Shown: in pieces, positions 8,407-64,000 of the stretch | Layout of the letters: the number at the start of each line of letters is the position of its first letter | How positions within the stretch are numbered: the stretch's first letter is position 1 | Assembly: GCF_963678975.1 (NCBI RefSeq) | Contig: NC_089275.1 | Coordinates: forward strand, 18,488,220-18,552,219 | From: Dysidea avara | Taxonomy: Eukaryota; Porifera; Demospongiae; Dictyoceratida; Dysideidae | Reading direction: 5' to 3' | Length of the DNA: 64,000 bases | The notes under the pieces: model-generated | Told to the model about the DNA's origin: nothing | The model's input: only the letters and a program-made list of their open reading frames with translations | Database searches by the model: none | Made by a program: the position numbers and the translations under genes

Positions 8407-9654
8407 AACAAACACTACAGTTAGCTACAGTTATAAACAAGACAGTACATACACAAAATAATCATTACAGAAACTATTAAAGTGACAGAAACTATTATTA
8501 TTCCAAGCCATACTAAGGTGTGAAACTGTTACATACAATATAAATACTTGTTGCAAACTCTGTGACTTCACAGTGAACTGCAAGTTTCTACTGCTAACTG
8601 TTCTGCTCTTGTCTTCTCCAATAACAGTAGCTATGATGTTGAAGATTGCTGCCCAGCTTCAGTTTGCCATCCATGGTCCATAATTGCCAACTTTGGGTGT
8701 ACAGTGATGGGCATGATGAACATAAGAAAAAGGCTTGCAAAACTCCCTAATATAGCACACGTCTTTGCATAATCATATCGTGGTTTGCTTTGCCATGTTG
8801 TACTGTGATGTATTCTCTGTGTGTATACGTGCATGCATTTACTGTAATGATGTTTTTTGACTTTTTCATAAGGCAGAAAACCACCAATGGCTTGTAAACT
8901 ACAGTGGTGTATTAATGTAATGTATACATATCTTTGAATTTAATTATGTTATTGCGTGATCTCACGTGATCCTCTTAAAATCACATTTGTGGTTTGTGGG
9001 TTGGGGGATGGCTAATGAGAAGTGGGTGGCACAATGTCTGGTACTGCTATTCAACCAGCTGATGGTGTAGCTATATCTAGGACACTCTGCTGATGCATGT
9101 CTGTTAGAAAACCCTTCCTGTTTTCTTTTTGTTTTTTTTTAGAAAAAGGTGTGGGTTCAGCTAACTAACTCACCTAATCTTTTCTGTCTAAAGAGTGCTG
9201 AATAGCTGTGTATAGTTGGGCTGAGGTCTGGAAGGCTATCTGATTATTTCCTGCCTTTATCCTTGTTATTTTACAATCGTGGAAAGTATGGATTCATATT
9301 TTATGCACTGTGTTACCAGTCAAGAAAGTCATTCTCCTTGTCAAGAAGCATTATAGTGTTATAACATTCCTCTGTTTTATTTGAAAAGCTGTGTTCAAAT
9401 ACCTATTCATCATCTCTTTAAAAGTACAGTAGCACCAGCAGTGGATTAAATACCTATGAAAAACTCAATGGAATTGTCTCAGTACTCAAGTTAGGTGGAA
9501 ATACAGTGTATTGCCTAAGAATTACTGCCTAATCTCTTGCATTTGAGTATTTCTACTTGTTAACAATACACAATGCTACATTTCCCATGTCATAAGCAGC
9601 TGTGAAGGCACAACAAAACGCTGTGGTCTAAATAAGTTAAACATCAAAACACAG

Positions 9655-9761
9655 GGTTCCATGGAATTTAGAACCCCTCAGGCCCTGTGGTGGCACCCCC
9701 ACTTCTCTTCACTCAGGTGCCACAACACAAGGCCTTTCAGGTTACTAAATTTCATAGAACC
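9655..9761. repeat. Imperfect fold-back repeat, about 107 bp
   Basis: Arms of about 45 bp: GGTTCCATGGAATTTAGAAC...GTGGCACC on the left and GGTGCCACAACACAAGG...TTCATAGAACC on the right. The same structure recurs in B (from about 33931) and C (from about 56739). It is probably a small fossil MITE. Confidence 0.6.
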
Positions 9762-9860
9762 GAAACCATATTAGAAATCTCCTTGAGTTGGTTAGAAACC
9801 TACTGAATAATGTATTAGACTACCAAGTACGTTCACTTTGTAGTATTTTAACAAAATGTA

Positions 9861-9947
9861 GGAACCAAATCCTTGGTTCTTCATAGTTTTAGAAACCTTG
9901 GCTTCACCTCAGTTTCTAAAACCATGAAGAACCTTGGTCTGGGTTCC
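9861..9947. repeat. Fold-back repeat, about 87 bp
   Basis: The left arm GGAACCAAATCCTTGGTTCT... pairs with the right arm ...AGAACCTTGGTCTGGGTTCC over about 36 bp. Present in all three copies just before the LINE fragment. Confidence 0.65.
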
Positions 9948-9964
9948 TAACTTATACTTATAAG

Positions 9965-10411
9965 GCAGAAATTGATGCAATCCATTTCCATAAGGCATTT
10001 GATAGCATGCCACTAAACAAATTGTTGGTCAAATTATGGGGGATGGGAATCATGAGTAAGGTACATTGTGGAACTGGTTTAATTCATATTAATTTTACAA
10101 TCAGCAACAGAATCCATTTGCCATACTTCATGCATAGATTATATATACTACGTACCAGGGTACGTAGTATATATTATCTATGCTTCATGCTACTTATCGG
10201 TATTCCCCAGGGGAGCATACAGGTGTTTATCAATGACTTACCATCTACTATTACATTCCAGTCGTTTGTCTATTGCAATGACACAAAGTATTACCAGAAA
10301 ATCATCTATTTGTCTAATATTCAACAGATTCAAAAGAGTATTAACTTATTGTTTACCTGCATGGCTGGTAAAAATCTTTTCTTTAAAGATTGGATCTTGA
10401 TATACTTTTAG
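9965..10411 (+). pseudogene. LINE (non-LTR) reverse-transcriptase fragment, copy A
   Basis: The frame reads HKAFDSMPLNKLLVKLWGMG, then GIPQGS, FINDLPSTITFQ and CNDTKYYQKI. This matches the F-KAFD-VPH-LL-KL--GI / G-PQGS / INDLP / ADDTK blocks of LINE reverse transcriptases (Jockey/CR1-type order). The catalytic F/YADD is replaced by YCND, and the stretch between the KAFD block and GIPQGS is shortened and holds a 52-bp palindrome. It is a short dead remnant with no endonuclease domain nearby. It was already there before the segment was duplicated, since B and C carry it. Confidence 0.75.
10132..10183. repeat. 52-bp palindrome inside the LINE fragment
   Basis: GCATAGATTATATATACTAC... pairs with ...GTAGTATATATTATCTATGC; arms of about 25 bp around a 2-3 bp centre with a single mismatch. 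Copy C has it unchanged; copy B has one extra mismatch (GTACGTAG to GTACATAG). Confidence 0.8.
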
Positions 10412-12316
10412 TTAAATGTCAGATGGTAAAGATTTTTAAAATGCACATGCAAATGCATAGCTCAACTTTAATTTATACACACAGTGACTGTTCAGTGCAC
10501 AATTTACAACTATAGCCCAAAGCTACTTACAACTAGACTTTTGACCACAACTAACCCGTTTTTGCCCCTGTCTTGTTCAAGATATTTTGCATATCATATA
10601 GATAACTACACTCTTAATCCACAACACATCTTGCATTAAAGAAATTACTAATTGTGCATTTTACAACTCAAGTACTTGAACCCAATTACACAAGAGAACA
10701 TCAATGAGCTTGAGAAATGATGGGATTGATAGGTATATGTTCACTAAATGTGTGTGTGGTGTAGGGATACGTAGTTAGCTACCTGTAGTCTGTCCCACTG
10801 TCAATTGGCTTGAAAGCTGAAGGGTTTGAATGCATTTGGAGCATAGCTTATTATAGTGAAATACTAACACCTGTTCTAATCATAAATACTTGTGCTAGTA
10901 AGTAACACTTTATCGTAGATAATAATAAATAGCAAATGGAACATATTTCAAACTAAGCTGGAGGGTGAAAAGGTATGTACAGAGCTTTCAGGTAAAATGC
11001 CATCTGACACCCATGCATTGGTTTGGTGTAGAGAATTTGAACTATGGTATATAAACAGATTAGTTTGTTAACTGATGAGCAAAACTATATAGGTACGTAC
11101 CAGTACACTAACACACAATAATATAATATAGTGGATAAATAAGACACAATGCATGCAGTGCTGATTCTGCTAAAGAAAGATTTTGCTACCATAGCTACTG
11201 TGTGTCAAACATTCAAGTAATCTGATAGTGGCTTGTTAGCCTGCATGTTGTGCAAAACTGATTGGCTTGTGATGAAAATTATATACGACATTCTAGACAG
11301 AGTGGCTATATTTTGTGCAAGATCATATACATAGTAATACCAGTATGCATGGCCATATGCATATACATTGGCACATATTGGTACAAGCACATAATGTAAA
11401 GATCATTATGTTGATACAATAAATTATATGGTGCACATGTTGAAAGAATGTAGCTATACACAGTTGCAGTTATATTGTGTGTTTGTATAATGTAGAAAGA
11501 CATCATTAATGCTTTTGTTGAGTAGCGAAACTGAAATTTATGCCACTTAATAGTCCATTTACCCTTACTTCCAATCTTATAATATTGAATTATTATTCGT
11601 AAACAAGTTACTTTACTATTTTCTGTGCATGTAAGTGCATGTGGAAGAACAATTTGTGAAATTTAGATTACAGTGTAGTTACATGTTGACAAGTGAGTGT
11701 AAGCAAAAATCAACAATGACTACTAGTGCATACATAATTACAGTTGAAATAGTTACTAAATGTAAAACATTAAGGGATTTGAAATAAGAGACCAGACTGT
11801 ATATCACAGGTATGGGGAAATCGCTACATTAGCAATGGAATTAAATATATACATGTATATTTCGCTTAATATGTCAAAGTAAGTAGGGGTATCCCACATA
11901 GTTATCGCTAGCTAATTGGGCTTAACTATAATCCTACACAATAGCTATAACTGACTAACTTTGGGGTTTGATCATATCACTCACTTTTTAGTGAAACTGG
12001 TTGTATGATCCATCCATCCATCCTAGGCTGTGGCATCCTTAGGCTATCCACTTATCCTCTATACAAGCCTAGTTTTTAAAAAATTCTATGACGGCTACTG
12101 TATATAGGTTTGCAATGCTAGATTTTGACCTTAAATTCACTGTTGCCCTCCCATAAAGGTACTTTTGTTGTGTAAAAATATTTCTATGATACTTATATTC
12201 TAGGATGCCATAATGAATTGGATTTTGTTTGGGGGATATTTCTACCAAACAGTATAATGACATAATTTTTATGCATTTACACATTTATCCTGAAAGTATT
12301 ACAGTATTTTTCCAGA
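10412..12316. other. Intergenic region upstream of beta-helix gene, copy A
   Basis: About 1.9 kb of AT-rich DNA conserved in all three copies. The short frames here are not supported as genes. It probably includes the promoter of the downstream gene, but no defined motif was found. Confidence 0.5.
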
Positions 12317-15300
12317 ATGTTACCGATTGTTTGCTGTGACGCTTTGCTACTGCTCCTGGCATTATTCTGAACTACCACAACTGGTAGTGTCTACACTGTG
12401 ACACCTGATGATTACTACTATCCTAACACTACATGTCATCATTGTCATCCTCTAAAACACTACCTGTTCAATGCCACTAAATACTTCACCTCTAACACTC
12501 AACTACTCTTCCTACCAGGAATACATCACCTTCATACTGATCTTATAATACAAAATGTCCACAACATTTCACTCATTGGAAATAATACTGCTAGTGGCAC
12601 AGCACCAGATGTAGTCATTCTTTGCAATGCTAGTATTGTTATTAGCGTAAAATTTATCAATGTCACAAACTTAACAATAAACAATATTGACATCAATGAT
12701 TGTACAAGTTACACTCCTTTACATGATGATGATCATGGCTATGCAATGTTGGTAATTAAAGAGTGTAGCAGTGTACTGCTTCATCGAATACATATCAGTA
12801 AAAAGTTTCTACATATCACAATGTATGCCTTAATAGGAATCAATATTTTGGGTGACTTAAAATTTAGTCATGTGATGTGTTATGGAATTTACCTGTATTA
12901 CAGTGGAACAAATTTAGCAATGAATAATTCTGTTATTTCAATTAATTCATACAAATTGCATTGTGATGATAATTGTGATTTGAGTAGTCCAGTTAGTCTA
13001 TTAGTTCTACATGTCCCAGTAAAGAATTTTAAGGTCATATTAAACATCTCTAACAGTAGTAATCAAGAAGTCCAACAAATAACTCACTGGCAAATACCTG
13101 CATTTCACATTACAGGAAACACAGCAGTATTGATAACAGATTGTGAGTTTGTTAGTAATAATTATCTTGGAAACTTTTTTAGTTTTGTTGGTACAAATAA
13201 TACTATTAAGTTAGCTAATTGTAGGTTCTTAAACAATGCAGCACAGTTTCAGTTAATATCTGTAATCATGGAAAATAATGCAACTGTGCATGTAAATAAT
13301 TGTATATTCCTACACAATGAACTGAGTGATGCACTAATATCGTTGACTGATACAGATGAGGCAATTATCTCAAATTCTGTGTTCCATAATAATAGTAATG
13401 GAAAGATGCTACACACTAAAAGTAACCTAAAACTCAGAACACTGATATTAGATAACAGTAATTTTTCTAATAATTATCACACAAAGAATGTGACACATGG
13501 TAATGTTATTGAGTTATTCAGCACTAACATTATTTTGATCAATGACGTAATGTTTCACATGAATTTGATGTATAGAAGTATTATTCAACTAAATTTTAAC
13601 AGTTTAATTCTCCTGCGAAATGGAACAACAACGTTTCTTAAAAATGTAGCAATATGCATCATAGACTTCAACTATGAAAACCGTGAAGAAACTGTAGCTA
13701 TAGCAGAAAACACTGCATTAATTTTCTACAAAAATCGTGTTTGTAAAATTTTTATTTTGAGTTTACTGCCTTTTCCATTATGCATTTTTCAGTACTATAG
13801 TGATACTCAACTTACTGATCAAGTTTCAAAAGATAAAAACTATTCAATCATTTTTTATACTAATTATTACAGCCCACAAGTACAGTGCTACAATTATATG
13901 CCACTAGACACTTGCCGCTGGTATCCGGAATCATCGTTTTCAAACATGCTCCCATCTGATGTCAACAAGAAGTACATAAAATTTACAAATCTATCAGTTA
14001 ATTATCATGTATTACCACAGATTTCTAGAAATACACTTTGTACCTGCAAAGATAATGAACATCCTGATTGTAGTATAAAAGAATTAGGTTATTTGTTTTC
14101 TGGACAAACCATGAATATATATGTTTCTTACAACACCAAAGCATTTACAAACTCAAAAGTAAAAATTGCATTTGAGACTGCTGTCAACCAGTTGTATGCA
14201 ACACCATGTATTATCAATGTTATAGAAACCATGCAAAATACCAATAGTAGCTGTGCCAACGTGACATGTACAGTGGTTTTCCCAACAGACAAATGGTGTG
14301 CAATATTTCTGAAAACTCCTTCACAATCAAATGATTATCTCAATATGTTTTACATAAAGCAACATTCGTGTCCACCAGGTTTTATTAAAATGGCAAAAAG
14401 ATGTGTATGCTATCCAAAAGTTACACAATATGGAGCAGCGGCGGAGGAAGTAGTTGATATGAGGGGGGGCTGGGCTGACCCAGACTTATTTCTATAGTTT
14501 GGTAAGGTGAGACCAAAAAAAAAAAAAAAGGGTCACAACCAACTGACAAGAGCTTTCCACCTCACCAGCTACCATTTCTAGCTGATAAACAACATAAAAA
14601 TCCTTACATAGCTCGCTACACACTGACTACTTTATTAGAGTGACTGCTCTATTAGAGTATCTCGATCTTTATCACGGTTTTTAGCCCCACTCCAAGAAAG
14701 ATAATTTCGGTGTGATATCATTCTGAGGGGGGGCTAAGCCCCCCTCAGCAGACCGAGGGGGGGCTTTAGCCCCCTAGCCCCCCCCTTTCCGCCGCCTATG
14801 CTATGGAATAACCAGTTGCAACATTGATTATCAAACTATACTATGTCCTGCTAATAGTTGGATATCTGCTACAACTCACAACAACTCCTACATTTATCAT
14901 ATTAGGCCACAATGCCCATTCCATTATTGCTTGCCTCATCCATCACTCCTTAACTTCTCCACTCCTAACTCACAATGTCAGTTTAATAGGTCAGGAGTCA
15001 TGTGCGGTCATTGTCAGCAAGGCCTCAGCAGTGTTTTTGCTTCCTCCAAATGTCAACTTTGTTCCAATATCTATTTGTTCCTTATCATACCTATTGCAAT
15101 AACTGGTCTTCTCTTAGTTTTTATGCTCTTTATAGTGAACCTCACAGTAACTGAAGGAACCATCAATGTCTTCATTTTCTATGTAAATGTCACTGGCATA
15201 CATGCAACAGTGCTACTTCATACTAACACATTAGCTTATATGTTTACATCACTAGCTAATTTTGATTTGGGTATTCAGACATGTTTCTACAATGGTATGG

Positions 15301-16202
15301 ATGACTATGCTAAGATATGGTTACAATTATCATTTCCCTTCTACCTCATCTTCATTGCTACATCACTCATCATAACAAGTCGTTACTCCACTACAATACA
15401 GAGGCTCACTGCACGTAGAGCACTACCTGTTCTTGCTACACTATTCCTATTGTCCTATACTAAAATACTCCACACAGTATCCATTGTCTTGTTCTCCTAT
15501 TCCACCATCACTCAACTACCCAGTGAACAGTCTACATTAGTGTGGTCAGTAGATGCTAATGTGCCACTACTTGGAGTAAGATTTATCATCTTATTCATAA
15601 CATGTCTCATCATATTCCTGATACAAGTACCCTTTACCATTATCTCGTTGTTTAGCAGGCCACTCCAGAGATTCCATTACATCAACAAATTTAAGCCACT
15701 ACTGGATGCTTATCAAGGACCATACAAAGATAAATTCTACTACTGGCCTGGTTTACAGTTAGTGATGCATATTGTGTTTCTGGGAATTTCTACATTAGAT
15801 AGAAACACTATCCTTGGATTTGGCAACATTATTGCAGCTGCAATATGTGTAATGACTGGAATAGCACATCCCTTCAAAACTAAATTCCACAATTATCATG
15901 AACTACTGCTACTTCTAAATTTTCAGATTTTATATATTGCTGTGCATCACAATTTCAGTGTGACCACTATCAATACAGTTATTGCTATGGCTACAGTTCA
16001 CTTCACTCTTATTGTGGTGTACCACATCATCACTTACATGTGTGGTGGAGTGATCAGGAACAAGATACAACAAGGTGTGAACACAGTTATGGGATGGATT
16101 AGGAAGAGACCAACACTACAAAGTTTTCAGCTTGCTAACGTTCCTGAAGTTGCTTTCAACTATTGTGAATATCGAGAGCCTTTGCTGGAACAAGAACAGT
16201 GA
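12317..16202 (+). pseudogene. Beta-helix / Cys-rich / multi-TM surface protein, copy A (broken)
   Basis: The start is taken at ATG 12317 because it opens a signal peptide (MLPIVCCDALLLLLAL), identical in position in copies B and C. Codon 18 is TGA (12368-12370; TGG in B), inside the signal peptide. Next comes about 600 aa of Asn/Ser/Ile-rich repeats typical of a right-handed parallel beta-helix (for example VLITDCEFVSNNYLGNFFSF), heavy in N-glycosylation sites. A Cys-rich linker follows (CPPGF, then RSGVMCGHCQQG...C..C), then about eight hydrophobic TM segments and a short tail ending EYREPLLEQEQ. A 367-bp element (14435-14801) interrupts the gene before the Cys-rich linker and shifts the frame. 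I know this architecture from sponge surface proteins of unknown function, possibly receptors. Frame 12398-14497 is open; frame 14931-16202 is open. Confidence 0.8.
14435..14801. mobile_element. 367-bp GC-rich TIR-like element inserted in beta-helix gene A
   Basis: Ends are imperfect inverted repeats (GCAGCGGCGGAGGAA on the left, TTCCGCCGCCTATGC on the right). TATGGA flanks both sides (14429-14434 and 14802-14807) and is single in copy B, giving a 6-bp target duplication. Inside are an A-run of about 15 and strong G-run/C-run hairpins (GAGGGGGGGCT with AGCCCCCC). Insert plus duplication is 373 bp, so it shifts the reading frame by one. Absent from B and C at the same site, hence a recent insertion. 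Confidence 0.8.
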
Positions 16203-17952
16203 ACACAACCACTAATTGCACATCACATTATATAAAATTCTGCAGCTATGCCAATGATGTATGTATATTAGCATGGTAAATGCACTTGCACTTTTTCAGG
16301 CATTCATGCAGACCCCATTAAATATGTAACTAACACCATCCATAGCTTGGCATGTGAGTATGGTGCCAACCTGGAATTTGGTCAACTTACACTCCTGGTG
16401 TGGTGCTGTTCCTAGATGTAATTTTAAGACAATAGGTTAAACACATGATGAGTTATGACTCATCAAACTTGGAAATTTGGAAAGGCTATAAGACCCTTAC
16501 TGTATGATAATATTCTAATACTTCTCTGTGCATTTATGGGGTTACATGTTAGTTAGTGTTGCTATTAACATTTAATTGTTTTGTTAAATCCTTTGCATAT
16601 AATAGCTACATCCTGTGCATATGTATGATCATGATGTACATACAAAATACCATTAAATTTAGTATGCAGTACATATAGTCAACTATAAGCATAGATGATA
16701 TACAGTACCAATTTTACACAATAATGCTTCATATGTGACCCGGTCTGAAAAACCAGTTTTACAGCCTTTACCACTTAACAAATAATAACTTGTAATTGTT
16801 CTGTGAACAAGGTATAGCTAGCAACCAAAACTTAGTTAGCTCAGAGCTGTTGTATATATAGCACAGTAATGGGGCAAAGTTTCAAGTAAGGCATGGGGAG
16901 TTGTCCGTAAACAAACTTGGATATCTTGAACTTTTATCAGGCCAGGTCACATTATGTAGTTCCACATTTAGGGTTGATTCAATATGTAGCTGAACAAAGG
17001 TATTCACATTCACAACAGAGTATTACAAAAGGTGGTACAGTAACTGATTACAAAATGACTGATAACAGCAAATAATGCATGCTAAATAATGTTTTAGTTA
17101 CATGTAGCTACATGTATGCTTGTGTATAGTGAAGCACATAGAAATGTGTGGAACATTAGAGACATATATATGTAAAGGAACCACTATTGATTACTTTATT
17201 GCAGTGATGATAGTACTAATAGTTATAATCAAAAAACAAAATTATATTGAACTAAAGAACCTCATGGATTTTTATAATATAGCTGCTACTTTGTTAAATG
17301 ATTGGCTGACTAACTGAATGCATGACCCACTGACTGACAGACAGACTGACTGACTGACACACTAACTGTTTGATTGACTGACTCACTGATTGATTAATTC
17401 ATTCATTCATTCATTCATGCCAGCCTGACCAACCAACCAGTCCTACTGACCGATTCAGAAAGTAGAAATTAGGATTTGAATGTACTCACATGTATGGCGT
17501 CACATTTTTAGCCACATAATTAATTTGTTGAAAATTTACACTATCATATAACTGCACTCGTACTACAGTGAATTCCCTTATGCTCTCAATCACTTGATAC
17601 AAAATCTTGTTTGTTGTACCATACAAGGCACATGCTGGCACTAAAACTATTGTTGAGATTGTGCTTTCTAGTTAAAACACCAGAAGAATTCATTTGTGAA
17701 GTAATACCCTTACAGTAGCTAAAACATTAAGTATAAAATATAGGAAATTTGTAATTCATTAGTAGTATACAGCTCAGAAATAAATGAATAGGAAATAACA
17801 TATGTGACTGCCACGTTCAAGAAGACCAACCTTTCATTTTGCTAAACGCTTGAACATTTGGTCTAGATACAGTATAATAATTATAGTAAGTGCTGCTTTC
17901 ATTGTAACTTAAAATGAATATTATTACTCATAAGATGAAAGAACATAGTTAC
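16203..17952. other. Intergenic, copy A, between beta-helix gene and ABCC exon
   Basis: The two genes converge here. 17305-17425 is low-complexity DNA of ACTG/GACT and then CATT tetranucleotides. A 'TATGTGACCCGGTCTGAAAA' sequence at about 16732 resembles the end of the TGTGAC...TIR family seen at 34870. No gene seen. Confidence 0.5.
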
Positions 17953-18120: not shown

Positions 18121-18144
18121 CTACAAATCGCACTGACTCAAAAT

Positions 18145-18190
18145 GTTAACAAGATATATGCACTGCTACCAGTGCGTATATCTCATTAAC
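18145..18190. repeat. Near-perfect palindrome at the duplication junction, copy A
   Basis: Arms of 21 bp: GTTAACAAGATATATGCACTG (18145-18165) and CAGTGCGTATATCTCATTAAC (18170-18190), with a 4-bp loop. The same palindrome is in B at 42599-42644. It lies about 15 bp from the point where A and B stop matching copy C. Confidence 0.85.
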
Positions 18191-19718: not shown

Positions 19719-21110
19719 CTATACTTTACTAACTTGGAGGAAGATACAATCACCTTTGAGATACTGACATGTGAGAGTGACCTTGTGGAGCTCTTCATTA
19801 GAAATGAACTGCTGTCTTCCCCAACCTCTAGCTCTATCACCATCAGTGACTCTACCAGCACTATCATCTTGGGGACGATCATCATAAGCCACTGTACTTG
19901 AATAATGATAACAGTCACTGATCTGGTTCAACAATGTCACTTCAAACTCTCCCCTCAGTGGCCATGCTAGCTCATCATCATGTGGACCCTTCATGAGGCA
20001 CAAGTACACTGACAGATGAGTACCTATAGAAGTCCTATTGCCAGCAGGGTAAACACACAGACACATCTTGTATTCTATAGTAACATCAGTGTAGAATGCA
20101 TCACTGCACCATATAGTACTATCTGCTTTTTTGTCATGAAACTCGGTGATACTGACAGTTACTGGACACACTTGATTACCTGATTTTGTCATTGCCACTG
20201 CAGCTGTTAACTCAATACATCGCTTAGCTATTGCTAAAAACCATGTATCACTATCAACAACACAAGCATCTTCATCGGGATCTTGGGGAACAAGTGTCTG
20301 TACTACAAGCATTAGTGTATTGATTTGTTTCATTGCAGTGGTGAGTTGTGATTTTGCACCAGACAGTTCTTTATCAGAGGCTGTAAGTCGACATTTTGTC
20401 AAGGACAGATGTTCTTTCATCTTCTCATCTGCATGTTTCTCTACGTCCTTACGCTTTATCCTCTCTTCACACCCCACATTGTGATACTCACACTATATCA
20501 TCTCAAGAGGACACTCCTTCCTGTGTGCTTCCATGTCTTCACGAGGGACACTCCCTACCTCACACTTATTGGGACAGGGTAGGGAAAGCTTGGAACATTG
20601 CTCCTTGTGTTCTCCCACAATAAATTGATGTTCTCCTGTAATGTGGCAGTACTGACAGTCAACCTTACGACTTACACACATGGTCTCAACATGACTGGTA
20701 AGATATCGTCGCTGTAACATCTTTCCACACTCATTGGAACATTTCACATCCTCAAACTGACAACCGTCACTGTTTCCAAGGTGATTTTTGATGTCATTCA
20801 GTTCACCGTGTCAATCACAACCTCTGTCCTTGTTAGTACACATCACATGAAGACTTTTAACTTCTCGATCAAGTTGTTTGTTGGGAAATGTAACAAACTC
20901 TTCATCACGACAAATAGGGCAAGCATTGGTAACAGTAGCGGCTTTCTTGATATTATCCAGACAAGACTTACAGAAAACATGTCCACAACACGTAGTGAGG
21001 TAAGGATCTCGGCTCGGGAGATGACAAATGTTGCAGACATAACGATCTGGCGTGGTATCGACAAATTTGTACTCGTATCCACCAGTTCTATTGGGCGTGG
21101 CTATGGCCAT
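19719..21110 (-). pseudogene. RING-TRAF (MATH) gene, copy A, two nonsense codons
   Basis: Collinear with the intact 463-aa gene in copy B. The single-exon frame is preserved throughout except for TGA at 20811-20813 (Trp in B) and TAG at 20493-20495 (Gln in B). The RING (CNIC...CGHVFC.SC...CPIC), TRAF zinc fingers, short coiled coil and MATH domain (YKMCLCVYPAGN, ARGWGRQQFI) are otherwise complete. A protein stopping at the first nonsense codon would hold the RING alone (99 aa). No frameshift was seen, so the loss is recent. Confidence 0.85.
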
Positions 21111-21138: not shown

Positions 21139-21277
21139 AGACCCACTTTAGGATATTTAGCTCAAAGATTTTCGCTTAGGCTCCTAGGCTATGGGTAAAC
21201 ACCTCGAACAGGCTCTGCCTTCTGTGTACACCCTCCAGTGCCTAACTGGTAAAGTAGATAATAACAATAACAATAAC
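21139..21277. other. Extra DNA upstream of TRAF copy A, absent from B
   Basis: Between GTCCTC and the palindrome, A has about 140 bp that B lacks (B goes directly from GTCCTCGCAG into the palindrome). It ends in (AATAAC)n. The origin is unclear: either an insertion in A or a deletion in B. Confidence 0.55.
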
Positions 21278-21368: not shown

Positions 21369-22258
21369 CTGCGCAAGGGTCTGCGAGGACGACACTACTG
21401 AACTACAATGATTCAGTACTACAATATCTACTTGTCCCAAGCGACTTGTCTTACTTAATGGACGGTAGACTACCTGGAGAAATCAGTGAACGTGGGAGCA
21501 GAGCTCGGAGCAGAGAGAGTGGCGGCCTGAGAGACAGCACGAAACCGAGGCCAAGAGCCTGGGACTATTCGAACTAATGCACCTATCAATATTAAGCCCC
21601 ACTACCCCCCTCCCGGGAGTACACGGGGGAATAATGGGGATTTGATCCCATTTGACCTTAAATCGCCCCACTACTGGGGCATTTGACTGTTCAAAAATTT
21701 TAGCACTTGCTTGACTTCAGCCCTCGGGGCTAAAAAAAGGGGGCTAGTTGTGGCCAAAAAGCTAGTTGTAAGAGACTTTTGGCTAGTTGTAAATGGTGAT
21801 TGGGCTAGTTGTAAAAGTCAGGCTAAAATAGCAAGCTGCACCACAGAAAAGTATAACCTCAAAGTTACATATAATAATCTATGTACACATGTGTGCAGCT
21901 TAAATCTCTTACAGGGATTTGGCTAAAAGTACCTGAAGATCCTATCTTGAGATGGCTATTTTTCAAAAAAATTCTCCACTTCACTATTTGATTAGAGATT
22001 GCCTCTACAATTCAGCCTATAGTCATAGTTACTTTTATTACAGTCCATGACTAAAATTGCCCTAAAATCTAGCTACTAATTGTACAATAGTTTATCCTAA
22101 AAAAACTACTTTCAAACCCTGTAACTGCTGCCTCTATATGTAGCTCTTTTAATCCTTTCAATTCACCATTTCCTTAGATTTCAGTCATTTCTCTCAAATT
22201 GCTTCCAGATTCAATCTCATCACAGCTACATTTCAAAAATTTCCTGGGGCAGTATATA
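21369..22258. other. Intergenic, copy A, with short 'GCTAGTTGTAA' repeats
   Basis: 21740-21830 has a 21-bp motif (GGCTAGTTGTAAGAGACTTT) present once here and three times in tandem in B. No gene recognised. Confidence 0.5.
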
Positions 22259-23523
22259 GAGTAGCTCACCTAATATCGGACCGGCTCCAATATCGGACGC
22301 CATTTCTCCTAAACTACAATGAACATTTAAACATTCTGCACATCTCCAAGTAGGCCAATGTTTCATCAACTTGTGTACCAAGTTTCAGATCTCTCGGGTC
22401 CTTAGTCTCGGTACAGCAGTCTTTTGAAGACAAGTCCGAATTATACGTAAAATCGGAAAAAAACGCTCAATTCAAGGACAGCTATTGTTTGCAGATCACA
22501 CTTGCATTAAATCAAAAATTGCATACCTTCAGATTGTAGGGCTACTCATTTACTTTCTAAATATGTATGGTTTATTTCATTTAAAGTATTGTACTGATGA
22601 GTTATAGACCAAAGAACAGAGGCTGTCACTGGAGCAATAATCGCCCTAACTCAAAATTGTAATCAATGCTTTGAAAATATTTTAAAGTGGATAATTGCAT
22701 ACAATTAATCATTTACAAGTTGTCAAGCAACTTTTCCAATAAATTCACTGTCCTCCAGACTTAAAGTATTACAGGAATACCAAAACCCTCTAATAGAGCA
22801 GTCAAATACCCTAATATAACAGTCACCAATTTTTTGCAAAAAGGTGGTGTAAATCAATTCTACATAATGCTGATATGCTTAAAATGTGGTTCTACGTACT
22901 TTTTGTTTTAGAGTTTTAGGCTTTCAGCTGAAATGCTTGACTTTTATGTTAGAGTGTTTTACAGCCATATTAAAGATTTTGCTATTTCTGCAGTCAAATC
23001 TGCAGTATTTTATGTCTTTATAGTGTTGGATTTGCAGTAACTAGTGTTTAACAACTTTCAGTACACAATCTAAAACAATCATCCACCTTGTATGCATTTT
23101 CAAACCATTTTTTCTGATTTTGAGCAAAAATAGCTAGGGCGATTATTGCTCCAGTGACAGCCTCTTTTCTTTGGTCTATAACTCATCAGTACAATACTTT
23201 AAATGAAATAAACCATACATATTTAGAAAGTAAATGAGTAGCCCTACAATCTGAAGGTATGCAATTTTTGATTTAATACAAGTGTGATCTGCAAACAATG
23301 GCTGTCCTTGAATTGAGCGTTTTTTCCGATTTTACGTATAATTCGGTCTGGTCTTCAAAAGGTTGCTGTACTGAGACCAAAATCCCGAGAGATCTGAAAC
23401 TTGGTACACAAGTTGATGAAGCATTGGCCTACCTGGAGATGTGCAGAATGTTTGAATATTCATTGTAGTTTAGGAGAAATAGCGTCCGATATTGGAGCCG
23501 GTCCGATATTAGGTGAGCTCCTC
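22259..23523. mobile_element. 1,265-bp DNA element with about 400-bp inverted repeats, only in copy A
   Basis: The ends are GAGTAGCTCACCTAATATCG and its inverse CGATATTAGGTGAGCTCCTC. The left arm reaches to about 22660 and the right arm starts at about 23124; they match closely (more than 90% by eye). A TA dinucleotide flanks both ends (22257-22258 and 23524-23525) and copy B has the empty site with one TA (GCAGTATATATGCC near 46615). There is no transposase frame inside. It is a non-autonomous TA-targeting DNA transposon that moved in after the A/B duplication. Confidence 0.85.
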
Positions 23524-28640: not shown

Positions 28641-29006
28641 AGCTCGCCAATAGTGTTCTCAGTCAATTTGGAGTGATTTGAGGGCCATGGAGGGCCATGG
28701 AGAGCCCAAACTTGGCCTCTGGATTCCAATCATCTTCTTGCTTCATTTTATACCCCTATATTAGCTCACCAATAGTGTTCTCAGTCAATTTGGAGTGATT
28801 TGAGGGCCATGGAGGGCCATGGAGAGCCCAAACTTGGCCTCTGGATTCCAATCATCTTCTTGCTTCATTTTATACCCCTATATTAGCTCGCCAATAGTGT
28901 TCTCAGTCAATTTGGAGTGATTTGAGGGCCATGGAGGGCCATGGAGAGCCCAAACTTGGCCTCTGGATTCCAATCATCTTCTTGCTTCATTTTATACCCC
29001 TATATT
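28641..29006. repeat. 122-bp tandem repeat, three units (copy A only)
   Basis: Units start at 28641, 28763 and 28885 with AGCTC(G/A)CCAATAGTGTT and end at CCTATATTA. Copy B has one unit (from about 51739). Unit identity is very high, so the expansion is recent. Confidence 0.9.
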
Positions 29007-32032: not shown

Positions 32033-32063
<31 letters not shown>

Positions 32064-50744: not shown

Positions 50745-51443
50745 CTGTTAAGTGTGATGGTCATAAAGGAGGTTGGATGAGAGTGGCTAACTTTAGTACC
50801 AGCTCAGGAGATGACTGTCCCACAGGATGGACTAAGATTACTACTCCTGCTGACCCTACATTTCCCAGCATCGATGTGTGTCATTCACCAAATGATGCTG
50901 CTGGTTGGTGCCCAGTAATCTTCTCTGTATGTGGAGTGAAGTATTACAAGATATGTGGAATGGCAAGAGACTACCAAAAAGGAACTCCAGATGTTCTTAG
51001 CTTGCAAAATTCTAGACCGAGAAGCATTAATGGTGCCTACGTGGATGACTTATCCATAACTATTGGCAGCCCTCGACAACATGTGTGGACTTATGTTATA
51101 GGAATCAATGAGGATCCTGATGCATCACCCAACATTTGTCCTTGTGCTGGTAATTCAGACACATCTGCTTATCCAGATCCTTTTATAGGTAGTCACTACT
51201 ATTGTGAATCAGGGATTACACAAGGAATAGCGTTTGATAATTATTACACCAATGATCCTTTGTGGGATGGTGAAGGCTGTGTCAATCCTAACAACAATTG
51301 TTGTACTAGTCCCGGAATGCCATGGTTTTTTGCGAGATTTTCCAGTTTCCCAAAGGTCCAACATCGAAGCAAGGATTTGTACAGATGAAGTTTATGCAAA
51401 TGAAGGAGTTGAAGTAGATCAACTTCAATTTTATGTTTTGTAA
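50745..51443 (+). pseudogene. Sponge-type Cys-rich domain protein, last exon, copy B (frameshifted)
   Basis: Same exon as 27647-28345: acceptor ATACAG|CTGTTAAG, then GGWMRVANF, CPTGWTKI, WTYVIGIN, CPCAGNSD, SHYYCESG, DPLWDGEGC and PWF. The same six-T run shifts the frame, and the other frame reads on to EARICTDEVYANEG and a stop at 51443. B has a Cys (FSVCGVKYY) where A has Ser, and His for Arg at DVCHS. The shared shift means it arose before the A/B duplication, or that both are read in a way I cannot see. Confidence 0.7.
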
Positions 51444-54400: not shown

Positions 54401-55423
54401 AGTTTGTCACTAACAAGAATGTTGACCAAATAACTTCAGTGGCATGTATTCTCAAGTGCATAGCTTTCTATGCTGTGTCACATTACGAAGCCTCACTGTG
54501 TATTTATTTGTGGGTTTTCACCCACTATTTGACACATTATAAATTCCATGATATATTTCCAAAGTATTCACTAGTTACAAATATCCCCCATGAGCAATTA
54601 TAACAATAAAATTAATACGTAGTTGTTGGGACTTTATACAGCATTCATTTACCACTTGTCTATGCAGCATGTCATTATAGCACCTCTGTTAAGACTAATA
54701 AATATTATTGTTTTGCAGTTGAATCTCTTAATTGTAATTGCATTTCATACACACAGTACTACAACTAAATAGCTGAACTAATCATGCCTTTACCCATTTC
54801 AAAATGTTGCTGTCAGACCTTCAGTGCTGGCCACTGTAAAGTTATAATGATAGTACTGTAATAATAATAATAATAATAATAAAAGTCTAGATCTGCATGG
54901 TGGTATAGGCCAATCAAAGATTTTATATGTGTATGTTTACCTGCATAGAGTTTACAAAACTTACACCTTTATGTTGCATACTTATGAATGTTGAAACATA
55001 AATTAATGTGGTGATTATTACCCTAAATACAATCTCTAATTACCATAATTCACTTTATTTTCATGTAAAATATTTCATGATATATATTTTCATGTAAAAA
55101 TATTTTCATTTGATTAGCGTGAATGACTGCTCTATTAGAGTAATTGATCTTGAGTAAAAATCTTTGTACACAGTTTTCCATATGAAATTCTTGTCAAATT
55201 TGACTTGCTATGCCCTATGCATACCTATAGTAATGGACTTGTGTTGGGGATTTGTAAAATAGTACGGTCAGACTGATGTGTTGAGAAATTTGTGACAAAC
55301 TGACATGTGCAGACAATGGTACGTATACTTCAAGATAGATAGATAGATATTTTTTTACAGTCAGCTAAAGCCATTCTTCCTTGCAGGAGATATTACAATA
55401 CATAAGTACAATACAACAACAAA
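51444..55423. other. Right part of copy B, no confident gene
   Basis: Equivalent to 28346-32604 with single units of the 122-bp and 14-bp repeats. (AAT)n at about 54857-54885. No gene supported. Confidence 0.45.
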
Positions 55424-57047
55424 AACAAACACTACAGTTAGCTACAGTTATAACAAGACAGTACATACACAAAATAATCATTACAGAAACTATTAAAGTG
55501 ACAGAAACTATTAAAGTGACAGAAACTATTATTATTCCAAGCCATACTAAGGTGTGAAACTGTTACATACAATATAAATACTTGTTGCAAACTCTGTCAC
55601 TTCACAGTGAACTGCAAGTTTCTACTGCTAACTGTTCTACTCTTGTCTTCTCCAATAACAGTAGCTATGATGTTGAAGATTGTTGCCCAGCTTCAGTTTG
55701 CCATCCATGGTCCATAATTACATGCCAGTGAATGCCGTGATGCTCATTGCCAACTTTGGGTGTACAGTGATGGACACGATGATCATGAGAAAAAGGCTTG
55801 CAAAACTCCCTAATATAGCACATGGCTTTGCATAATCATTGTCTGTATATCGTGGTTTGCTTTGCCATGTTGTACTGTGATGTATTCTCTGTGTGTATAC
55901 GTGCATGCATTTACTGTAATGATGTTTTTTGACTTTTTCATAAGGCAGAAAACTACCAATGGCTTGTAAACTACAGGGGTGTATTAATGCAATGTATACA
56001 AATCTATGAATTTAATTATGTTGTCGCGTGATCTCACGTGATCCTCTTAAAATCACCTTAGTGGTTTGTGGGTTGGGGGATGGCAGATGAGAAGTGGGTG
56101 GCACAATGTCTGGTACTGCTATTCAACCAGCTGATGGTGTAGCTATATCTAGGACACTCTGCTGATGCATGTCTGTTAGAAAACTCTTCCTGTTTTCTTT
56201 TGTTTTCTTTTTGTTTTTTTTTTAGAAAAAGGTGTGGGTTCAGCTAACTAACTCACCTAATCTTTTCTGTCTAAAGAGTGCTGAATAGCTGTGTATAGTT
56301 GGGCTGAGGTCTGGAAGGTTATCTGATTATTTCCTGCCTTTATCCTTGTTATTTTACAATCATGGAAAGTATGGATTCATATTTTATGCACTGTGTTACC
56401 AGTCAAGAAAGTCATTCTCCTTGTCAAGAAGCATTATAGTGTTATAACATTCCTCTGTTTTATTTGAAAAGCTGTGTTCAAATACCTATTCATCATCTCT
56501 TTAAAAGTACAGTAGCACCAGCAGTGGATTAAATACCTATGAAAAACTCAATCGAATTGTCTCAGTACTCAAGTTAGGTGGAAATACAGTGTATTGCCTA
56601 AGAATTACTGCCTAATCTCTTGCATTTGAGTATTTCTACTTGTTAACACTACACAATGCTACATTTCCCATGTCATAAGCAGCTGTGAAGGCACAACAAA
56701 ATGCTGTGGTCTAAATAAGTTAAACATCAAAACACAGGGTTCCATGGAATTTAGAACCCCTCAGGCCCTGTGGTGGCACCCCCGCTTCACTTCGCTCAGG
56801 TGCCACAACACAAGGCCTTTCAGGTTACTAAATTTCATAGAACCGAAACCATATTAGAAATCTCCTTGAGTTGGTTAGAAACCTACTGAATAATGTATTA
56901 GACTACCAAGCACGTTCACTTTGTAGTATTTTAACAAAATGTAGGAACCAAATCCTTGGTTCTTTATAGTTTTAGAAACCTTGGCTTCACCTCAGTTTCT
57001 AAAACCATGAAGAACCTTGGTCTGGGTTCCTAACTTATACTTATAAG
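55424..57047. other. Intergenic, start of copy C
   Basis: Equivalent to 8407-9964, with the same fold-back repeats. No gene. Confidence 0.5.
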
Positions 57048-57494
57048 GCAGAAATTGATGCAATCCATTTCCATAAGGCATTTGATAGCATGCCACTAAA
57101 CAAATTGTTGGTAAAATTATGGGGGATGGGAATCATGAGTAAGGTACATTGTGGAACTGGTTTAATTCATATTAATTTTACAATCAGCAACAGAATCCAT
57201 TTGCCATACTTCATGCATAGATTATATATACTACGTACCAGGGTACGTAGTATATATTATCTATGTTTCATGCTACTTATCGGTATTCCTCAGGGGAGCA
57301 TACAGGTGTTTATCAATGACTTACCATCTACTATTACATTCCAGTCGTTTGTCTATTGCAATGACACAAAGTATTACCAGAAAATCATCTATTTGTCTAA
57401 TATTCAACAGATTCAAAAGAGTATTAACTTATTGTTTACCTGCATGGCTGGTAAAAATCTTTTCTTTAAAGATTGGATCTTGATATACTTTTAG
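57048..57494 (+). pseudogene. LINE reverse-transcriptase fragment, copy C
   Basis: Same remnant as copy A (KAFDSMPLNKLLVKLWGMG; FINDLPSTITFQ; CNDTKYYQKI), including the 52-bp palindrome; essentially identical to A in protein. Confidence 0.75.
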
Positions 57495-59391
57495 TTAAAT
57501 GTTAGATGGTAAAGATTTTTAAAATGCACATGCAAATGCATAGCTCAACTTTAATTTATACACACAGTGACTGTTCAGTGTACAATTTACAACTAGCCCA
57601 AAGCTACTTACAACTAGACTTTTGACCACAACTAACCCGTTTTTGCCCCTGTCTTGTTCAAGATATTTTACATATCATTAACTACACTCTTAATCCACAA
57701 CACATCTTGCATTAAAGAAATTACTAATTGTGCATTTTACAACTCAAGTACTTGAACCCAATTACACAAGAGAACATCAATGAGCGAGAGAAATGATGGG
57801 ATTGATAGGTATATGTTCACTAAATGTGTGTGTGGTGTAGGGATACGTAGTTAGCTACCTGTAGTCTGTTCCACTGTCAATTGGCTTGAAAGCTGAAGGG
57901 TTTGAATGCATTTGGAGCATAGCTTATTATAGTGAAATACTAACACCTGTTCTAATCATAAATACTTGTGCTAGTAAGTAACACTTTATTGTAGATATTA
58001 ATAAATAGCAAATGGAAACTCATACTAAGCTGGAGGGTGAAAAGGTATGTACAGAGCTTTCAGGTAAAATGCCATCTGACACCCATGCATTGGTTTGGTG
58101 TAGAGAATTTGAACTATGATATATAAACAGATTAGTTTGTTAACTGATGAGCAAAACTATATAGGTACGTACCAATACACTAACACACAATAGTATAATA
58201 TAGTGGATAAATAAGACACTATGCATGTAGTACTGATTCTGCTAAAGAAAGATTTTGCTACCATAGCTACTGTGTGTCAAACATTCAAGTAATCTGATAG
58301 TGCATGGCTTGTTAGCCTGCATGTTGTGCAAAACTGATTGGCTTGTGATGAAAATTATATACGACTTTCTAGACAGAGTGGCTATATTTTGTGCAAGATC
58401 ATATACATAGGAATACCAGTATGCATGGCCATATGCATATACATTGGCATATATTGGTACAAGCACATAATGTAAAGATCATTATGTTGATGCAATAAAT
58501 TATATGGTGCACATGTTGAAAGAATGTAGCTATACACAATTGCGGTTATATTGTGTGTTTGTATAATGTAGAAAGACATCATTAATGCTTTTGTTGAGTA
58601 GCGAAACGGAAATTTATGCTACTTAATAGTCCATTTACCCTTACTTCCAATCTTATAATATTGAATTATTATCCGTAAACAAGTTACTTTACTATTTTCT
58701 GTGCATGTAAGTGCATGTGGAAGAACAATTTGTGAAATTTAGATTACAGTGTAGTTACATGTTGGCAAGTGAGTGTAAGCAAAAATCAACAATGACTACT
58801 AGTGCATACGTAATTACAGTTGAAATAGTTACTAAATGTAAAACATTAAGGGATTTGAAATAAGAGACCAGACCGTATATCACAGGTATGGGGAAATTGC
58901 TACATTAGCAATGGAATTAAATATATACATGTATATTTCGCTTAATATGTCAAAGTAAGTAGGGGTATCCCACGTAGTTATAGCTAGCTAATTGAGCTTA
59001 ACTATAATCCTACACAATAGCTATAACTGACTAACTTTGGGGTTTGATCATATCACTCACTTTTTAGTGAAACTGGTTGTATGATCCATCCATCCATCCT
59101 AGGCTGTGGCATCCTTAGGCTACCCACTTATCCTCTATACAGCCTAGTTTTAAAAAAATTATATGACGGCTACTGTATATAGGTTTGCAATGCTAGATTT
59201 TTACCTTAAATTCACTGTAGCCCTCCCATGAAGGTACTTTTGTTGTGTAAAATATTTCTATGATACTTATATTCTAGGCCTAGGATGATTAATTGGATTT
59301 TGTTTGGGGGATATTTCTACCAAACAGTATAATGACATAATTTCTATGCATTTACACATTTATCCTGAAAGTATTACAGTATTTTTCCAGA
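57495..59391. other. Intergenic upstream of beta-helix gene, copy C
   Basis: Equivalent to 10412-12316; empty site for B's 239-bp MITE near 57670. No gene. Confidence 0.5.
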
Positions 59392-62300
59392 ATGTTACCA
59401 ATTGTTTGCTGTGAAGCTTTGCTACTGCTCCTGTCATTATTCCGAAGTACCACAAGTGGTAGTGTTTAAATTGTGACACCTGCTGATGATTACTACTATC
59501 CTAACACTACATGTCATCATTGTCATAACCTAAAACACTACCTGTTCAATGCCACCAAATACTTCACCTCTAATACTCAACTACTCTTCCTACCAGGAAT
59601 ACATCACCTTCATACTGATCTTATAATACAAAATGTCCACAACATTTCACTCATTGGAAATAATACTGCTAGTGGCACAGCACCAGATGTAGTCATTCTT
59701 TGCAATGCTAGTATTGTTATTAGCGTAAAATTTATCAATGTCATAAACTTAACAATAAACAGTATTGCCATCAATGATTGTACAAGTTATGCTCCTTTAC
59801 ATGATGATGATTATGGCTATGCAATGTTGCTTATCAAAGAGTGCAGCAACGTACTGCTTCATCGAATACATATCAGTAAAAAGTTTCTATATATCACAAT
59901 GTATGCCTTAATAGGAATCAATATTTTGGGTGACTTAAAATTTAGTCATGTCATGTGTTATGGAGTTTACCTGTATTACAGTGGAACAAATTTAGCAATG
60001 AATAATTCTGTTATTTCAATTAATTCATACAAATTCCATTGTGATGATAATTGTGATTTGAGTAGTCCAGTTAGTCTATTAGTTCTACATGTCCCAGTAA
60101 AGAATTTTAAGGTCATATTAAACATCTCTAACAGTAGTATTCAAGAAGTCCAACAAATAAATCGCTGGCAAATACCTGCATTTCACATTACAGGAAACAC
60201 AGCAGTATTGATAACAGATTGTGAGTTTGCTAGTAATAATTATCTTGGAAACTTTTTTAGTTTTGTTGGTACAAATAGCACTATTAAGTTAGCTAATTGT
60301 AGGTTCTTAAACAATGCAGCACAGTTTCAGTTAATATCTGTAATCATGGAAAATAATGCAACTATGCACGTAAATAATTGTATATTCCTACACAATGAAC
60401 TGAGTGATGCACTAATATCGTTGACTGATACAGATGATGCAATTATCTCAAATTCTGTGTTCCATAATAATAGTAATGGAAAGATGCTACACACTAAAAG
60501 TAACCTAAAACTCAGAACACTGATATTAGATAACAGTAATTTTTCTAATAATTATCACACAAAAAATGTGACACATGGTAATGTTATTGAGTTATTCAGC
60601 ACTAACATTATTTTGATCAATGACGTAATGTTTCACATGAATTTGATGTATAGAAGTATTATTCAACTAAATTTTAACAGTTTCATTCTCCTGCGAAATG
60701 GAACAACAAAGTTTCTTAAAAATGTAGCAATATGCATCATAGACTTCAACTATGAAAACCGTGAAGAAACTGTAGCTATAGCAGAAAACACTGCATTAAT
60801 TTTATGCAAAAATCATGTTTGTAAAATTTTTATTTTGAGTTTACTGCCTTTTCCATTATGCATTTTTCAGTATTATAGTGATACTCAACTTAATGATCAA
60901 GTTTCAAAAGATAAAAACTATTCAATCATTTTTCATACTAAACATTACAGCCCACAAGTACAGTGCTACAATTATATGCCACTAGACACTTGCCGCTGGT
61001 ATCCGGAATCATCGTTTTCAAACATGCTCCCATCTGATGTCACAAGAAGTACATAAAATATACAAATTTATCAGGTAATTATCATGTATTACCACAGATT
61101 TCTAGAAATACACTTTGTATCTGCAAAGATAATGAACATCCTGATTGTAGTATAAAAGAATTAGGTTATTTGTTTTCTGGATAAACCATGAATATATACG
61201 TTTCTTACAACACCAAAGCGTTTACCAACTCAAAAATAAAAATTGCATTTGAGACTGTTGTCGACCAGTTATATGTGACACCATGTGTTATCAATGCCAT
61301 AGAAACTGTGCAAAATGCCAATAGTACCTGTGCCAAAGTGACATGTACAGTGGTTTTTCCTACAGACAAATGGTGTGCAATATTTTTGAAAATTCCTTCA
61401 CGATCAAATGATTATCTCAATATGTTTTACATAAAGCAATATTCATGTCCACCAGGTTTTATTAAAATGGCAAAAAAATGTGTATGCTATCCAAAACTTA
61501 CACAATATTATGGAGTAACCAGTTGCAAAATTGATGATCAAACTATACTACGTCCTGCTAATAGTTGGATATCTGCTACACCTCACAACAACTCCTACAT
61601 TTATCATATTACGCAACTTTGTTCCAATATCTACTTATTCTTTATCATACCTATTGCAATAGCTGGTCTTCTCTTAGTTTTTGTGCTCTTTATTGTGAAC
61701 CTCACAGTAACTGAAGGAACCATCAATGTCTTCATTTTCTATGTAAATGTCACTGGCATACATGCAACAGTGCTACTTCATACTAACACATTAGCTTATA
61801 TGTTTACATCACTAGCTAATTTTGATTTGGGTATTCCATCATGTTTCTACAATGGTATGGATGACTATGCTAAGATGTGGTTACAATTATCATTTCCCTT
61901 CTACCTCATCTTCATTGCTACATCACTCATCATTACAAGTCGTTACTCCACTAAAATACAGAGGCTCACTGCACGTAGAGCACTACCAGTTCTTGCTACA
62001 CTATTCCTATTGTCCTATACTAAAATACTCCACACAGTATCCATTGTCTTGTTCTCATATTCCACCATCACTCAACTACCCAGTGAACAGTCTACATTAG
62101 TGTGGTCAGTAGATGCTAATGTGCCACTACTTGGAGTAAGGTTTATCATCTTATTCATAACATGTCTCATCATATTCCTGATACAAGTACCCTTTACCAT
62201 TATCTTGTTGTTTAGCAGGCCACTCCAGAGATTCCATTACATCAACAAATTTAAGCCACTACTGGATGCTTATCAAGGACCATACAAAGATAAATTCTAC

Positions 62301-62762
62301 TACTGGCCTGGTTTACAGTAGGTGATGCGTATTGTGTTTCTGGGAATTTCCACATTAGATAGAAACACTATCCTTGGATTTGGCAACATTATCACTGCTA
62401 CAATGTGTGTAATGACTGGAATAACACATCCCTTCAAAAATAAATTCCACAATTATCATGAACTACTGCTACTTCTAAATCTTCAACTTTTATATATTGC
62501 TGTGCATCACAAATTCAGTGTGACCATTATCAATACAGTTATTGCTATGGCTGCAGTTCACTTCACTCTTATTGTGGTGTACCACATCATCACTTACATG
62601 TGTGGTGGAGTGATCAGGAACAAGATACAACAAGGTGTGAACACAGTTATGGGATGGATTAGGAAGAGATCAACAGTGCAAAGATTTCAACTCACTAACA
62701 TTCCTGAAGTTGCTTTCAACTATCGTGAGTATCGAGAGCCTTTGCTGGAACAAGAACAGTAA
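59392..62762 (+). pseudogene. Beta-helix / multi-TM surface protein, copy C (broken)
   Basis: ATG 59392 opens the same signal peptide (MLPIVCCEALLLLLSL). Lesions: TAA at codon 26 (59467-59469), a one-base loss near 61040 (GTCACAAG against GTCAACAAG), TAA near 61182 (GGATAAACC against GGACAAACC) and TAG at 62319-62321 (CAGTAG against CAGTTA). A 147-bp in-frame deletion near 61612 removes 49 residues, including most of the Cys-rich linker (RSGVMCGHC block). The beta-helix (59473-61056) and TM segments (61621-62700) are otherwise recognisable. None of these lesions is shared with A or B. Confidence 0.8.
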
Positions 62763-63740
62763 ACACTACCACTCACATTTATAAATTATAATTATAGAAA
62801 ATTCTGCAGCTATGCCAATGACGCAGCACAGTAAAATTAATGCACTTATATTTGCATTCATGCAGACCCCATAAAATATGTTACTAACACATTGAGAAGT
62901 CATGCATATAAAATAAATCATATATTTAATGTTAATTGCTTACTGTGTGACAATATCTATAATATTATTCTAATACTTCTCTGTGCATTTATGGGGTTAC
63001 CTGTTATTTTGTGTTGCTATGAACATTAAATTCTTGTTTATAAATTCTTCATAATAGCTACATCCTGTGTATGATGTACTCTATTTAGTATGTAGTCACC
63101 TATTAAGCATAGATGATGTATAATACACAACAATACTGTCATATATATGTGACCCGTTATGATAAAACCAGTTTTATAGCTTTTACAGTTGACTCCAGTC
63201 AACTTGTAACTGTTTTGTGAACAAGGTAGCAACCAAAACTTGGTAAACTTAGAACTGTTGTACAGCATAGTAATGGGGCAATGTATCAATTAAGGTATGG
63301 GGATTTATCTGATATAACAAACTTGGATATCTGGAACTAGTTTTATCAGGCCAGTGCTGTACCACATTTATAGGGTTGGTTCGTTATGTGGCTGAACAAA
63401 AGGTGGTATAGTAACTGATTACAAAATAGTAGTTATTATGTATTTACATGCAGCTACATATGTATGTATGCAAATATGTACGTATGTATGTGTGTATGTG
63501 TGTATGTATGTATGTATGTATGTATGTATGTATGTATGTATGTATGTATGTATGTATGTATGTATGTATGTATGTATGTATGTATGTATGTATGTATGTA
63601 TGCTGCATGCATGCATGTATGTATGTATGTATGTATGTATGTATGTATGTATGTATGTATGTATGTATGTATGTATGTATGTATGTATGTGTGGATAATA
63701 TTATTACTCAAATGATGAAAGAATATAGCTATACATGTAC
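62763..63740. other. Intergenic, copy C, shortened, with microsatellite
   Basis: About 1 kb against 1.75 kb in A, clearly more diverged than the left part of C. TATGTGACCCGTTATGATAA at about 63147 matches the TGTGACCCGG sequence of A. Contains the (GTAT)n run. Confidence 0.5.
63482..63690. repeat. (GTAT)n microsatellite, copy C only
   Basis: About 200 bp of TATG repeats with a GCATGCATGCATG interruption near 63602. The Tyr-Val-Cys-Met and His-Thr-Tyr-Ile frames over it are artefacts. Confidence 0.95.
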
Positions 63741-64000
63741 CTATAATCTGGAACCATATTTCAATTTTTCCACTGTTCTGGCAATATCCTTAAGTCTTTC
63801 TGACTCTACAAGACCAGTTCTGTTTACCATACTATTAAATGTTGAGTGTTGTTTCTGTAGGAGGTTAAATGGTGTATCAAACTCTATCACTTTACCAGAA
63901 GATAAAACCTACAAATCAACAACATCTGTACAATTGTTCACCATCATCCTAACTCACCAGTACTCTATCAGAGTCCATTATTGTTTCCAGTCGATGAGCA
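63741..64000 (-). CDS. ABCC/MRP-type ABC transporter, last two exons (partial)
   Basis: The upstream exon (64000-63958, runs off the window) reads AHRLETIMDSDRVL, the classic post-Walker-B 'AHRL.TI.D.D' H-loop of the second nucleotide-binding domain. A 49-bp GT-AG intron (63909-63957) joins it in phase 0 to the last exon 63908-63741: VLSSGKVIEFDTPFNLLQKQ, then MVNRTGLVESERLKD and stop. The H-loop His is the conserved residue that contacts ATP. Full-length ABCC proteins export conjugated or anionic compounds, but the substrate cannot be told from this end. Unlike the orphan exons in A and B, this one belongs to a gene that continues beyond the window. Confidence 0.85.

Follow-up and report, generated by a model that had tools for sequence, protein, structure and literature searches.

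A probable young tandem duplication of a ~23-kb segment, apparently cut by an inversion, in the sponge Dysidea avara

The stretch of DNA analyzed here (the window) is 64,000 bp of the genome of the sponge Dysidea avara, C4:18,488,220-18,552,219, where C4 denotes contig NC_089275.1, and it carries an array of three similar copies, A, B and C, of a segment holding a putative surface-protein gene and a TRAF-like gene. The analysis suggested that the array probably arose by real segmental duplication, head to tail, of a ~23-kb segment now diverged by ~2%, and that it lies among related neighbourhoods that are duplicating in tandem elsewhere on the chromosome. Most likely it is an ordinary young tandem duplication whose right side was trimmed, whose left side was cut by a later inversion, and whose genes are mostly decaying. 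The copies were compared by self-BLAST and a three-way alignment of A, B and C, and the genome searched comprised 550.8 Mb in 108 contigs. All positions are counted from the first letter of the window, with negative values lying upstream of it.

Layout and divergence of the three copies

Self-BLAST placed the starts of collinear head-to-tail matches at 8407, 32605 and 55424 (E=0), and both the sequence shared by these starts and the identical order within A and B, which an earlier note on this DNA had described from the letters, were confirmed by self-BLAST and the three-way alignment. Copy A (8407-32604, forward strand, 24,198 bp) is a full unit without its left edge, copy B (32605-55423, forward, 22,819 bp) is a full unit, and copy C (55424-62760, forward) is a partial one, comprising the first ~7.4 kb of the unit, to the point where the surface gene ends. 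The left ~7-8 kb of the unit, which includes the surface-protein gene, is referred to as X, and the rest of the unit as Y. The earlier note had extended three copies to position 64000, which holds for A and B as full units but not for C, which amounts to about one third of a unit and ends at ~62.75 kb. From 55424 to that point the identity of C to A and B was about 90-99% in windows of 500 alignment columns, and the differences private to C climb steeply near A 16,100-16,250, which corresponds to ~62.75 kb in C. Beyond it C stays in phase at 72-81% identity to ~63.4 kb (matching A 16.1-17.0 kb), followed by simple repeats and one block of ~90% identity at 63697-63917; judged from the alignment, this stretch (62761-63917, forward) represents the neighbourhood in an older copy, which continues C in phase.

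The copies are thus adjacent and in the same orientation, and alike in coding and non-coding DNA, as in a direct tandem duplication. No N base was found in the window or in the surrounding 184 kb, and Rfam at gathering scores gave no match in the window. When a 2-kb piece of Y (23600-25600) was searched against the whole assembly, with 40 of 596 candidates scored, the only full matches were A and B, and the other 45 of 47 rows were shorter. A comparison of the array with the next 90 kb to the right gave 27 BLAST rows, nine of which were at least 200 bp long; eight of these had 70-82% identity, and the ninth (98%) is a piece of a 366-bp insertion private to A. Part of that insertion (14436-14657) recurs inverted at 69,658-69,878 with 98.2% identity over 222 bp, which suggests that the element is also recent.

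A and B differ by substitution at 441 of 21,981 aligned bases (2.0%; 298 transitions and 143 transversions), and these differences are spread evenly along the unit. The earlier note had estimated about 97% identity by eye; between-copy BLAST pieces of at least 1 kb had 92-97.6% identity with gaps counted, and the A-B identity for substitutions was 98.0%. The A-B alignment has 43 gaps on the side of A and 32 on that of B, and the difference in length between the two copies is due mainly to private insertions of at least 100 bp. In A these measure 373, 1,267, 137, 244 and 110 bp, and include a foldback element with ~450-bp inverted arms (22257-23523, 1,267 bp), an insertion just upstream of the TRAF frame (21141-21277, 137 bp) and extra copies of a 122-bp tandem repeat (28641-28884); in B they measure 241 and 253 bp, the former being an element with inverted ends (34866-35106).

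The relationship of C to the other two copies changes along its length. Over A 8407-11999 the pairwise divergence was 1.88% for A-C, 1.96% for B-C and 2.27% for A-B, in comparison to 4.59%, 5.19% and 2.20%, respectively, over A 12000-16350. The differences found in one copy only numbered 38 for A, 41 for B and 27 for C in the left part (3,570 sites; p 0.21 for equidistance), and 29, 52 and 143 in the right part (3,813 sites; p 7e-22), so that C-only sites made up 27 of 106 one-copy differences in the left part and 143 of 224 in the right part (p 5e-11 by Fisher's test). To place these differences relative to other members of the family, gene sites were used at which at least four of five surface-gene paralogues agree. 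At 44 C-only gene sites the paralogue base was carried by C at 19, by A and B at 21 and by neither at 4, in comparison to the A-only and B-only gene sites, where the odd copy carried the paralogue base at 1 of 10 and 2 of 19, respectively (together 3 of 29). The difference in paralogue matching between C-only and pooled A-only and B-only sites was significant (p 0.0014, with the four neither-matching C sites dropped). On these site patterns A and B are sisters over the surface gene and C is the outgroup, and because the patterns differ between left and right, C would represent an older lineage in the gene that was homogenised with A and B to its left. C would then be a mosaic of young and old sequence, as expected of exchange between real tandem copies. 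We suggest that the array grew and was trimmed by unequal exchange between homologous copies, and that exchange between C and the other copies took place over their first ~3.6 kb.

The left edge of the array

The earlier note had taken 8407 as a unit start; the match does begin there, but the position falls inside a dispersed element. An element of ~170 bp spans the start of copy B (32514-32682, forward) and is intact before both B and C, and a search with it, in which 40 of 54 candidates were scored, returned 43 rows, many of them unbroken across the position equivalent to 32605. At the left edge of A only the right half of this element is present (8407-8484, forward). The two halves are complementary: query positions 116-206 lie at 8407, and query positions 8-120 lie inverted at C4:18,472,944-18,473,053, with an overlap of 5 bp. 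Because complementary halves of one element lie in opposite orientation at two places with a 5-bp overlap, as left by an inversion, position 8407 is best read as its right-hand breakpoint, and the rearrangement looks like a 23,682-bp inversion of C4:18,472,944-18,496,625. By this evidence 8407 would be a breakpoint within a dispersed element, rather than a duplication junction or a natural unit start. The inversion would have moved the left edge of A upstream.

The sequence expected to the left of A can in fact be traced. The last ~880 bp of the unit (R880) are present at the end of A (31726-32609, forward) and before copy C (54536-55428, forward), and R880 also lies inverted, in three pieces, at -15275 to -7314. 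In a search with R880, 40 of 1,611 candidates were scored and yielded 46 rows, in which near-complete copies were found only at the A end, at the B end and upstream in three pieces; the remaining rows were shorter and 76-91% identical, and a part of R880 of ~130 bp is dispersed. On the candidates scored, R880 as a whole was rejected as a dispersed repeat. The upstream copy diverged from the other two by 2.85% and 2.96%, in comparison to 2.32% between those two, values of the same order as in the array. The three upstream pieces of R880 had at first resembled exons, but they are split by stretches of 228 bp and 6.8 kb that have inverted-repeat ends and are not introns, by which a retrocopy origin was ruled out; the 6.8-kb stretch (-15165 to -8351) probably represents the insertion of a DNA element. 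At C4:21.64 Mb an older relative, 76-91% identical in pieces, keeps the order of Y end, R880 and X start, with the dispersed element absent, and this order, as seen before B and C, therefore looks ancestral. A novel duplication junction at 31725/31726 was considered and ruled out, the relative at C4:21.64 Mb being continuous there.

Positions 1-8406 would form the right part of the inverted block and lie outside the array. By Pfam they hold a kinase frame (6657-7832, reverse strand) and a Kelch frame (5699-6604, reverse strand), each with one match within 184 kb. An apparent unit start may thus be an inversion breakpoint, a point for caution when arrays of this kind are delimited.

Genes of the unit and the surrounding chromosome

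The surface-protein gene is broken in all three copies of the array, by different lesions. Copy A (12317-16199, forward) has a stop near codon 18 and, at 14436-14801, the 366-bp insertion, which together with a target-site-like duplication adds 373 bp net. In copy B (36843-40606, forward) the frame is open from the signal peptide to 39338, where a TA-flanked miniature inverted-repeat transposable element (MITE) of ~253 bp (39337-39591) breaks it; a second lesion, a frame change ~100 bp downstream of the MITE, is absent from A and C. The MITE belongs to a young family, whose members, that of B included, were 93-100% identical among the 40 of 157 candidates scored. Its ends resemble splice sites; rescue of copy B by splicing the MITE out was rejected in view of the frame change downstream. 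In copy C (59392-62759, forward) the lesions are three stop codons, a 147-bp deletion and a frame change near 61.04 kb.

By simple hydropathy the predicted protein has a hydrophobic start and several hydrophobic stretches at its C-terminal end, and the first 832 residues of B carry 24 sites of the N-glycosylation type; a location at the cell surface is suggested from these features. Two 5' pieces had no Pfam match at E<=0.01, a 3' piece of A matched DUF7630 at E 0.0075, which is below the family cut-off, and the PDB gave only chance-level matches (best E 0.61). The gene has at least 127 relatives in the genome (127 of 1,088 candidates scored), which commonly consist of a single open frame, in many cases of about 1,150-1,200 codons by uncounted impression, and others are shorter or carry stops. 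Six relatives lie on one strand at C8:13.09-13.15 Mb, with four of five spacings of 8.4-9.0 kb.

The TRAF-like gene is intact in copy B (44187-45578, reverse strand, 463 codons), where Pfam found a RING domain, a TRAF zinc finger and a MATH domain, and it carries two premature stop codons and no frameshift in copy A (19722-21110, reverse strand); copy C is without it. The domains in B fit the TRAF-like set of RING, TRAF-type zinc fingers and C-terminal MATH, with an adaptor role that is putative. Between A and B the nonsynonymous divergence (dN) was 0.0138 and the synonymous divergence (dS) 0.0248 on 22 changes, and on so few changes the ratio gives no sign of strong constraint. In a genome search 92 of 847 candidates were scored and yielded 138 rows, mostly on C4, and among these the best full-length match outside the array was 68% identical, with partial rows up to 78%. 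A dense cluster of TRAF-like frames lies at C4:3.3-8.4 Mb. After the duplication, the copies of the surface gene would have decayed and one TRAF copy would have remained open.

The other frames of the unit are small. A frame of ~200 codons in A (27679-28287, forward), for which Pfam gave no match at E<=0.01, is 96.6% identical in amino acids over 203 residues to its counterpart in B (50777-51388, forward, 203 codons). Short frames at 10007-10411, 34284-34673 and 57090-57494 look by eye like reverse-transcriptase remnants; for one of the three, submitted as 34284-34670, Pfam found no match at E<=0.01.

A second tandem duplication is present in the assembly ~300 kb to the left (C4:18.188-18.230 Mb), with a spacing of ~28.6 kb, and it holds surface-gene relatives. 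One 3.9-kb piece of it is 99.95% identical between copies and another is 97.3% identical, a difference within one unit that suggests conversion or mixed ages. To the right of the array, at 63.7-142 kb, are older tandem repeats with a spacing of ~28-35 kb and 76-96% identity (rows of at least 400 bp, among the matches listed). Two downstream frames that by eye had seemed to be pieces of a transporter were discarded, as neither had a Pfam match at E<=0.001. One minisatellite-like repeat family forms blocks around the cluster, some in opposite orientation, at about -29,990 to -26,420, -7,150 to -1,500, 72.1-75.7 kb and 153.2-154 kb. At C1:48.20-49.22 Mb a ~360-bp repeat has twelve irregularly spaced matches on the same strand, of which eleven measure 330-333 bp, and these may form a large tandem array.

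Competing explanations and known systems

The earlier note had left the choice between a recent duplication and two haplotypes set end to end, and of these the duplication is now the better supported. The haplotype explanation would make A and B two alleles of one X-Y locus joined in assembly; C would be a true paralogue of X alone, and Y would be a single-copy sequence. We regard this explanation as a good deal less probable, though a serious competitor. The uniform 2.0% divergence of A and B is what alleles would show, A and B are sisters over the surface gene with C as outgroup, and the searched piece of Y has exactly two full matches. A published report on Dysidea avara (PMC12909245) describes a chromosome-level assembly of 575 Mb in 162 scaffolds with 15 chromosomes, and identifies 61 of 147 unplaced scaffolds as alternative haplotype regions. 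Against this, the three copies are compatible with equidistance over A 8407-11999, so that the divergence of C would have to equal the allelic divergence by chance or through conversion. Three near-equally diverged copies over 3.6 kb, as well as three copies each of X and R880, cannot occur in a diploid unless at least one duplication is real, and another tandem duplication of similar size is seen nearby in the assembly. The mosaic structure of C is likewise harder to derive from two haplotypes, though it is no proof that both copies of Y share one chromosome.

Several points weigh against a genuine duplication of the whole unit. Equidistance of the three copies was not rejected (p 0.21), which falls short of a demonstration, and conversion between alleles and a paralogue could also yield it; two alleles of a highly polymorphic animal could likewise differ by 2% and by seven indels of at least 100 bp, as A and B do. 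Furthermore, a novel duplication junction was not found: the 32604/32605 join falls within the dispersed element, with its flanking order kept in the relative at C4:21.64 Mb, and the founding event was not located. Two explanations that give the array a function were also considered. The decayed surface copies might serve as gene-conversion donors that feed variants into a very large receptor family, with the mosaic C as one such exchange, which we consider quite improbable. The suggestion in the earlier note that copy number could matter to the host through the surface protein and the TRAF adaptor found no support in the integrity of the genes, and a module of receptor and adaptor retained in duplicate for a benefit to the animal appears the least probable explanation of all. 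Both gene families are large in the genome and the TRAF gene of B is intact, but the three broken surface frames, the two stops in the TRAF gene of A, the lack of this gene in C and the dN and dS values argue against it. The genuine tandem duplication remains the preferred explanation.

Small inversions with a short duplication at the breakpoints are a known class, and the left edge of the array resembles it in that complementary halves of one element lie in opposite orientation with five shared bases. Haplotype-induced false duplication is also well known, and leaves nearly identical neighbouring copies that differ by a few percent and by scattered indels. The array departs from that class in that neither a mosaic C nor three copies at roughly equal distances over 3.6 kb would come from two haplotypes alone; two haplotypes account for at most two copies, and three of X and three of R880 were found, although A and B alone might still be alleles. 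The class in general is the subject of PMC9516828. Tandem and segmental duplication in sponges has already been described. For Ephydatia muelleri, the genome report (PMC7385117) gives widespread segmental duplication of gene clusters, one of which holds 177 predicted E3 ligases, and the array would likewise be a tandem or segmental duplication in a sponge genome. The argument made there against an artefact, from highly variable intergenic and intronic DNA, is inapplicable to the present array, where the non-coding DNA is also ~98% identical, suggesting that the array is younger than the Ephydatia clusters so described. It would illustrate the way in which arrays of this kind turn over, through recent duplication, exchange between copies, quick decay caused by mobile elements, and an inversion by which part of the array is concealed.
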